Assembly (NCBI GenBank): GCA_025041175.1
Contig: JAKCFJ010000002.1
Coordinates: forward strand, 744,001 to 808,000
Reading direction: 5' to 3'
DNA: 64,000 nucleotides
DNA from: Halobacteriales archaeon YIM A00010
GTDB lineage: Archaea > Halobacteriota > Halobacteria > Halobacteriales > Haloarculaceae
Positions 21,120 to 22,446 of this stretch are shown in pieces (the first letter of the stretch is position 1; the number at the start of each line of letters is the position of its first letter). A program made the position numbers and the translations under genes. A model generated the notes under the pieces. The model searched no databases. It was not told the origin of the DNA and worked only from the letters and a program-made list of their open reading frames with translations.

Positions 21120-21264
21120 CGACTGTCGACTCACAATTAGGAAAACGATTACCGCTCATCTTGCGGGTGAAATCACTTTTGGACGTGGTTTTGCCCGACT
21201 ACACCGAGCTGACCGCAACCTCAACCGAGATGGAGGTTGTGGAACGAGAGCGGACACCGCGTCA

Positions 21265-21470
21265 TAGGGACTGTTGTGATTCCTTTTCGCTGTGGCGACA
21301 CAGAACGGTTCGTGAAACCCCCGAGCCGTCGTCATACTGTCGGACAGAGATAGTTGAATATCGGCTGCTGGTGACCGCTAGACAGCAACTGGATATTCCG
21401 TCTCAGTCCGTACGTGACTCTGTCCGACAGTATCACTCAACGACCGTGCCGCTACTCACAACAGTCACTA
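21265..21470. repeat. Family C inverted-repeat element carrying a nested family A element
   Basis: Outer element with ends TAGGGACTGTTGTG / CACAACAGTCACTA, flanked by TCA on both sides (21262-21264 and 21471-21473). Without the nested insert it aligns over its whole length with the family C copy inside pabB (41138-41245). Its middle is interrupted by a family A element plus duplicated TCA. Confidence 0.85.
21335..21432. repeat. Family A element nested inside the family C element
   Basis: 98 bp bounded by TACTGTCGGACAGAG / CTCTGTCCGACAGTA-type ends and flanked by TCA direct repeats (21332-21334, 21433-21435). The uninterrupted family C copy in pabB shows a single TCA at the matching place, which identifies the duplication and the insertion order: IS first, then C, then A. 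Confidence 0.85.
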
Positions 21471-21671
21471 TCAGCTCATGGAACTCGACATTCGACGCTA
21501 CCTTGCTGATCCCTCTCGTTCAGATACTGTTCGAGAAGGAGATACGTACGGTGTCGAACGATCACGAACGGTCGTACGACTGAGTAGACAAGTGCGATCT
21601 ACAGCCGATCACTGGCGCTTCGTCGAACTACGTTGGATTGATGAGCAGCAGTATTGGCTGTCCGCAGTCAC

Positions 21672-21879
21672 CAGAACGCAAAGCGATCTGACTGGCCCAC
21701 GAGAGCTGCGCTCTCGTGAACGTCACCGGAACTCTCCGAGTTCCGGTTGGCACGCAAGACCGAAGGTCTTGCGAACGTCCCCAGAATCCTTTGGATTCTG
21801 GTGTGCGAACGAGACGCGGAGCGTCTCGTGAACGTCGCCGGACTACGTCCGGCTGGCTCATCAGACTACCGTCTGATGA
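21672..21879. repeat. Array of eight small triloop hairpins, ~28-nt period
   Basis: Eight consecutive inverted repeats with 3-nt loops (last one 4): 21672-21690 (one mismatch), 21698-21718, 21725-21747, 21753-21773, 21781-21801, 21809-21829, 21837-21853 and 21858-21879. Stems are 7-10 bp and all different in sequence (for example CCAGAATCC TTT GGATTCTGG, then ACGAGACGC GGA GCGTCTCGT). Centres are 23-28 bases apart. The short spacers alternate between AACGTC and TGGC types, so the basic unit is a hairpin pair of about 55 bp. The array interrupts the IS6 transposase gene. The flanking GCAGTC / GCTGTC may be a target duplication. Confidence 0.85.
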
Positions 21880-22446
21880 ACGCTGTCGATCCTCAAACGA
21901 ACAGACTGCTGTACAGACGGCTGTTTTCGACGGCTACAACCACCCTTACTGCAATATCTCTGCGAGAAGTAACCGGGAAACACGACGTCAAGAACGCCGT
22001 GTCTCTCGTTGATGGAGCAAAACAGCTTCAGACGACACGCCGTCGCTGAAGACTCTGATTTCAGACACGAACGCCACGGACATCCGAATGTCGAACGTGT
22101 CTTTCATGAGGTAAAACGACGAACCATCTATTTCCCAAACTGCTTCAGCAACACCAATATAGAAACTACCGATGGGTGTATCTTCGCGCAGGATAACGGT
22201 GGGGACCTTCTCACTGCCCCCCATTCCAGACGCTTGCGAGTCGATCTGGTCACTCGACAGATCTATGCTACCTCGCGCCGAATTCCGGAGATCCGTTTCG
22301 AAGGCATCAACAAATAGCATTCTGGTGGTTTCTAGTGGATATCCACACTTATAACGTAAATAAACATATTAAAACTATAATATACTTGTATTGAATTACG
22401 AGAGAGTAGTTTATGTGTTCACACACCATAGAACCCAGTTGGGACA

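Follow-up and report, generated by a model that had tools for sequence, protein, structure and literature searches.

Tandem hairpins in a decayed haloarchaeal IS6 gene as probable copies of a small, REP-like mobile DNA element

An array of eight hairpins interrupts an IS6-type transposase gene in this DNA. Very probably it represents a haloarchaeal mobile DNA element, small and non-autonomous, that is present here in four tandem copies and is named the double-hairpin element (DHE). The DHE unit spans 55–60 bp (mostly 55–57 bp) and has the order TC, hairpin A, TGGC or TGTGCG, hairpin B, AACG, where hairpin A has a stem of 7–10 bp and usually a 3-nt loop. A first reading, made from the letters alone (the sequence-only reading), had proposed a two-hairpin unit of ∼55 bp; this is borne out. 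The same pair also occurs singly, both at many other loci of this genome and in further haloarchaea.

The window, that is, the whole stretch of 64,000 nucleotides that was analysed, carries the array in a 215-bp insert at 21668–21882. As first described, it is a series of eight consecutive inverted repeats at ∼28-nt spacing, mostly with triloops: seven of the eight stems (7–10 bp) are perfectly Watson–Crick paired, with a single mismatch in hairpin 1, and seven of the eight loops are 3 nt long, hairpin 8 having a 4-nt loop. The spacers alternate between an AACGTC type and a TGGC/TGTGCG type. All four units lie on the forward strand, end in AACG and are matched by a covariance model of the DHE. 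Unit 1 (21668–21722, matched at G000:C2:765668-765722) comprises hairpin A at 21672–21679/21683–21690 with loop AAA and the mismatch, and hairpin B at 21698–21706/21710–21718 with loop TGC. In unit 2 (21723–21777; 66 bits, E 1.2e-16), hairpin A (21725–21734/21738–21747, loop TCC) is joined by a TGGC spacer to hairpin B (21753–21761/21765–21773, loop GAA). Unit 3 (21778–21834; 73 bits, E 6e-19) has a TGTGCG spacer between hairpin A (21781–21789/21793–21801, loop TTT) and hairpin B (21809–21817/21821–21829, loop GGA). In unit 4 (21835–21882; E 2.7e-7), a short hairpin A (21837–21843/21847–21853, loop TAC) and a TGGC spacer precede hairpin B (21858–21866/21871–21879, loop TACC).

The folding energy of the array is 8.3 standard deviations below that of dinucleotide shuffles when computed for RNA (z −8.3) and 9.3 below when computed for DNA (z −9.3), and none of 200 shuffles folds as well. 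A CRISPR was considered and ruled out, in line with the first reading: CRISPRs have identical direct repeats and unique spacers, whereas here the stems differ and the spacers are common to the units. Rfam models give zero matches to the array up to an E-value of 1, and phage records contain no match.

The family is widespread within one order. A search with CCAGAANNCNNNGNNTTCTGG, which leaves the two inner pairs free, gives 57 sites in the array's own genome, against 0 for the reversed control; the pattern is frequent within the order and near absent in the rest of the phylum. Among loci harvested with this pattern, the free inner pairs are complementary in 141 of 153 hairpins. The covariance model, built from 31 units, gives 134 matches in the own genome, some of which are one place read on both strands. 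Of 99 genomes sampled from the order, 84 have at least one match; outside it, the model finds single weak matches in only five genomes. In annotated plasmids, no gene lies under the best match in 36 of the 37 matched records. Related arrangements were also seen. At L011:785-1008 (G000:C2:164 kb), nine hairpins separated by TGCC/TGCT and CTGTC/GATGTC spacers form an array that adjoins a seven-hairpin array of the window's type, and the downstream palindrome of IS605-type elements contains hairpin pairs whose spacers are of the TAGCA/GATGTC type (L070:6300-6371, L166:4637-4708 and L171); the latter pairs may be further subfamilies.

The host gene of the array is a decayed IS6 remnant, interrupted at further places besides the array. 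Its forward-strand parts upstream (21478–21667) and downstream (21883–22054) of the array are 90% and 94% identical to a second copy in the same genome (G000:C2:118490 and G000:C2:118699, respectively), and 73% and 72–76% identical to Natrinema IS6. The reading frame that the array splits is contiguous in Natrinema and other relatives, and the array sits between adjacent codons of the transposase, as first proposed. The possibility, raised at the same time, that intact IS6 relatives carry the segment as normal sequence was examined, and the uninterrupted relatives are without it. At one and the same position, the four IS6 copies in the own genome hold 4 (in the window), 1, 3 and 2 units; their end units are similar and their interiors different. 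The remnant also has an apparent second insertion of ∼200 bp at 21260–21460, between ..ERERTPR and QLMELD.., which holds a 16-bp inverted repeat (ATACTGTCGGACAGAG / CTCTGTCCGACAGTAT, at about 21334–21349 and 21419–21434) and most of whose sequence is also present in a sister copy (L009).

Evidence for mobility comes from empty and occupied sites. Six insertion sites were resolved by comparing the joined flanks of occupied copies with relatives that lack the element (slashes mark the borders). At a site in the middle of tnpB, CAGCG/TCACC...TTAACG/CAAACG corresponds to uninterrupted CAGCG or close variants in eight relatives. At an IS1341-type site, TTCACG/TCACC...GAACG/CCGAGG corresponds to (T/A/G/C)ACG/CCGAGG in seven relatives, and in a second tnpB type TACAACG/TCACC...GAACG/CCGCG is matched by an uninterrupted copy. 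Near the 3′ end of tnpB, ATCAACG/TCC...TAACG/CCTG has the empty counterpart ATCAACG/CCTG. An IS605-type element has a site at its upstream end (GAGGGGATACAGCG) where empty copies, forward insertions, inverted insertions and B–B dimer insertions all share the same base. The IS6 site obeys the same rule if its left CG has mutated: the left copy of the dinucleotide (21666–21667) is now AG, and GG in two sister copies, and would have been CG in the empty site, while the right copy (21881–21882) is CG. DHE insertion is thus precise and follows a CG dinucleotide, in either orientation, leaving CG at both ends, and all resolved sites fit. The outcome would be the same with a 2-bp target duplication as with the insertion of a unit whose own last two bases are CG, and the two cannot be told apart. 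The sequence-only reading had pointed to GCAGTC and GCTGTC at the borders of the array, which are best read instead as a CG repeated on either side. The IS6 and tnpB sites had at first suggested that 6 bp (GCNGTC or AACGYC) are duplicated at the target, a view given up in favour of CG after more empty sites had been resolved. The suspicion that these might be a self-spreading family of palindromes is supported by the many copies and by the paired empty and occupied sites. The hotspot at GAGGGGATACAGCG is a CG that lies just within the IS605-type element's upstream palindrome (L270, L280, L284 and L286).

The regular 55–57-bp spacing and the shared spacers would suit an array made in place, from one double-hairpin unit that was tandemly duplicated and whose copies then diverged by compensating mutations, as the sequence-only reading had supposed. 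Recombination inside arrays does occur, as judged from the differing array lengths among the IS6 copies and from a chimeric hairpin, CGCAAGACC.AAA.GCTCTCGTG, in one of them (L014:1100-1450, G000:C3:704 kb); the arms of this hairpin come from two hairpin types, and it is likely to be the product of a deletion between neighbouring hairpins. In-place duplication is nevertheless contradicted by identity, and is highly improbable: units in the window are 82–88% identical to units elsewhere in the genome and only 61–66% identical to their neighbours in the array. The array is therefore a mosaic, which arose as various members of the family inserted and as arrays recombined with one another. The border AA-CG-TC offers a way for such growth. 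Because every insertion leaves a new CG, a next unit could enter beside the first, and adjacent insertion together with recombination between arrays could then yield tandem arrays of different members.

Stem pairing is kept while stem sequences change. In the covariance alignment, both partners of a pair differ in 105 cells, against a single cell with a one-sided G–U change, and the covariation score is 0.509 against 0.143 for shuffled alignments; this set was harvested with a Watson–Crick filter, and the unbiased sets are those defined by flanks alone, in which sites were chosen without regard to stem pairing. At these flank-defined sites, 1018 of 1040 stem pairs (98%) are Watson–Crick, 11 are G–T and 11 are mismatched. 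Several different stem sequences occur there, and stems are shortened on both arms together by paired single-base deletions. The first reading's view that stems differ and pairing is kept through compensating changes therefore holds at sites free of the filter, and the loss of pairing in relatives that it had thought worth looking for is not seen. Selection on RNA is expected to leave more G–T pairs than other mismatches. That G–T pairs are no commoner than mismatches points to upkeep of the pairing at the level of DNA rather than RNA, which is the best reading of these data. Pairing would be kept by selection for a single-stranded hairpin in mobility, by the copying of one arm onto the other in replication (template switching), or by both.

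Arm copying by itself, with hairpins that are under no selection, is possible but rather doubtful. The paired single-base deletions and the lack of a G–T excess are what it would produce, as are copies that differ only by a reverse-complemented triloop (AAG/CTT, GAA/TTC, AGA/TCT or ACA/TGT). Such copies make up 4 of 11 at the tnpB site and 7 of 55 pairs in a wider set, where the excess over a null of about 6% (5.8%) is weak; these loop-inversion pairs are suggestive, though few and mutually non-independent. Against a purely replicative origin, the stem vocabulary is limited and 62% of loops are GNA or its complement TNC, compared with 12.5% expected by chance, which suggests some constraint on the hairpin. 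GNA and TNC form unusually stable DNA triloops beside a C–G pair. Given the limited stem vocabulary, constraint by a binding protein accounts for the pairing as well as arm copying does.

The same data bear on the idea that the array is an RNA or a protein-binding regulatory array, selected here as a transcribed series of hairpins. Its strong folding as RNA and its conserved pairing would agree with such a role, and bacterial REPs are often transcribed (PMC3733652). The idea is highly improbable all the same, given the location within a decayed IS6 gene whose copies carry anything from one to four units, the equal counts of G–T pairs and mismatches, the lack of an Rfam match and the presence of copies at hundreds of unrelated places.

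Inside tnpB genes, the reading frame continues through the DHE. All 32 distinct copies at the tnpB 3′ site have inserts of 57 or 60 nt without a stop in the tnpB frame, whereas the other two frames contain stops in 18 and 24 of the 32; at the non-coding upstream site of the IS605-type element, insert length varies freely. Judged by their frames, tnpB genes in several loci (L066, L070, L082, L097 and others) would be translated through a 57- or 60-nt DHE near the C-terminus. This is the region in which transposons of this kind are known to encode a guide RNA. The IS6 copies differ in this respect, their frame not being open.

How the element is moved can be approached from its neighbours. The DHE would move in folded, single-stranded form with the help of a trans-acting enzyme. 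One candidate is a Y1 transposase of the IS200/IS605 or RAYT type, which would mobilise DHE units as passengers in the manner of GTAG REPs and REPINs. The two hairpins of subterminal type, the insertion 3′ of (A)ACG and the unit end AACG recall the target logic of IS200/IS605, and a DHE lies ∼140 bp upstream of some Y1 genes. This last position is an insertion hotspot, which makes the DHE there a passenger. Across 99 genomes, the number of DHEs shows no clear correlation with that of Y1 genes (PF01797; rho 0.18, p 0.07), and Y1 matches are absent from eight genomes that hold 16–47 DHEs, although the enzyme may have been present in the past. Mobilisation by Y1 enzymes is therefore unlikely, and the mobilising enzyme would not consistently be of this type. 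TnpB is a frequent DHE neighbour and the association is strong; a role as carrier, with insertion hotspots in IS605-type elements, explains this better than one as mobiliser, because the hotspots within these elements have empty copies. A fuller picture can be put forward only tentatively: DHEs may be miniature elements found throughout the haloarchaea, whose folded single strands enter CG by means of a non-Y1 enzyme and whose stems evolve by arm copying in DNA. Changes in one arm, deletions included, would be written into the other arm, and loops would flip orientation. If so, the covariation of hairpins here records a mutational process instead of an RNA function.

The DHE is a REP-like element, so that the verdict of the sequence-only reading, neither a CRISPR nor any nameable class of repeat, was too strong in its second half. 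The closest described kind is the bacterial CGTC-tagged REP dimer, including palindromic elements of Rickettsia. The superfamily of CGTC-tagged REPs (Di Nocera et al. 2013, PMC3733652) includes dRS3 of Neisseria, and RPE-4 and RPE-6 of Rickettsia are CGTC-REPs (PMC3733652). Like the DHE, these have an unpaired CGTC (or TGTC) tag beside a short stem, form dimers with the tags outside (head–head) that are often heterodimers, include subsets with complementary stem changes, and lie between genes and sometimes within them, with no dedicated transposase (PMC3733652). In nearly all DHE copies, CGTC precedes hairpin A and CGTT or CGTC (on the other strand) flanks hairpin B. DHE stems are mostly 8–10 bp, compared with 8–9 bp in CGTC-REPs, and head–head dimers are the rule; judged on Y1 genes, the DHE has no transposase of its own either. 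As for the short tail of CGTC-REPs (consensus CCA), the TGGC/GCCA spacer carries CCA on one strand, at hairpin B, but the TGTGCG types are without it. The differences are that the DHE is found in haloarchaea and not in bacteria, that its loops are 3 nt in the great majority instead of 4–5 nt, and that most of its stems start with CC or AC and a minority with AT, the usual start in CGTC-REPs. Tandem clusters are frequent in some genomes and not rare, the inner spacer is short (4–7 nt), G–T pairing is rare, and precise insertion at CG is resolved for the DHE. Membership of the superfamily is not claimed, because stems starting with AT and loops of 4–5 nt are both defining features. The text of PMC3733652 names no haloarchaeon, and that of a 2025 survey of REPs (PMC12306157) has no word beginning with 'Halo'; a text search for the element sequences themselves returned chance matches only.

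Other known systems share single features. The palindromic elements of Rickettsia occupy protein genes without breaking the frame and are read through, and the inserts at the tnpB 3′ site are stop-free in frame as well; the DHE differs in having two adjacent hairpins (57/60 bp), in a read-through so far seen only in tnpB genes of transposons, and in being archaeal. SMR-A, SMR-B and PATEs of Haloquadratum (PMC3119063) are, like the DHE, short, transposase-free mobile repeats of haloarchaea with an enigmatic mobilisation, and they too target IS605-type elements and palindromes. SMR-A is ∼110 bp long, with prominent terminal inverted repeats and no target duplication, and sits in near-terminal palindromes of IS605-type elements; SMR-B ranges down to 80 bp (PMC3119063). 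The DHE, at 55–60 bp and with CG on both sides, is set apart from SMR-A by the description of the SMRs rather than by their sequences, and the main text of PMC3119063 describes neither double triloop hairpins nor hairpin arrays among the Haloquadratum repeats. REPINs and BIMEs associated with RAYT have a mobile unit of two REP hairpins in inverted order, also intergenic and in many copies; their tag is GTAG and not CGTC/CGTT, and REPINs depend on RAYT, whereas the DHE shows no link to Y1 and at least 16 copies are present in each of the eight genomes lacking a Y1 match. The double-hairpin or repetitive hairpin elements of mitochondria (PMC2800124 for sponges) likewise spread as two adjacent hairpins; they are organellar, and the likeness is one of description, not of sequence.

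The DHE is thus an archaeal, triloop and often clustered variant of REP-like repeats, of which an earlier description may exist in the subscription literature, which lay largely outside the search. The known range of REP-like mobile palindromes thereby grows to include archaea, in which most haloarchaea carry the family. Now that its CG target, unit and orientations are defined, mobility and the mobilising enzyme can be tested in culturable strains such as Haloferax mediterranei. The family also carries a warning, since its stems covary without a G–T excess: DNA repeats without RNA function can come to show strong base-pair covariation. Compared with the bacterial CGTC-REPs, its closest described counterparts, the DHE adds empty and occupied sites that are exactly resolved, of a kind not reported in PMC3733652.
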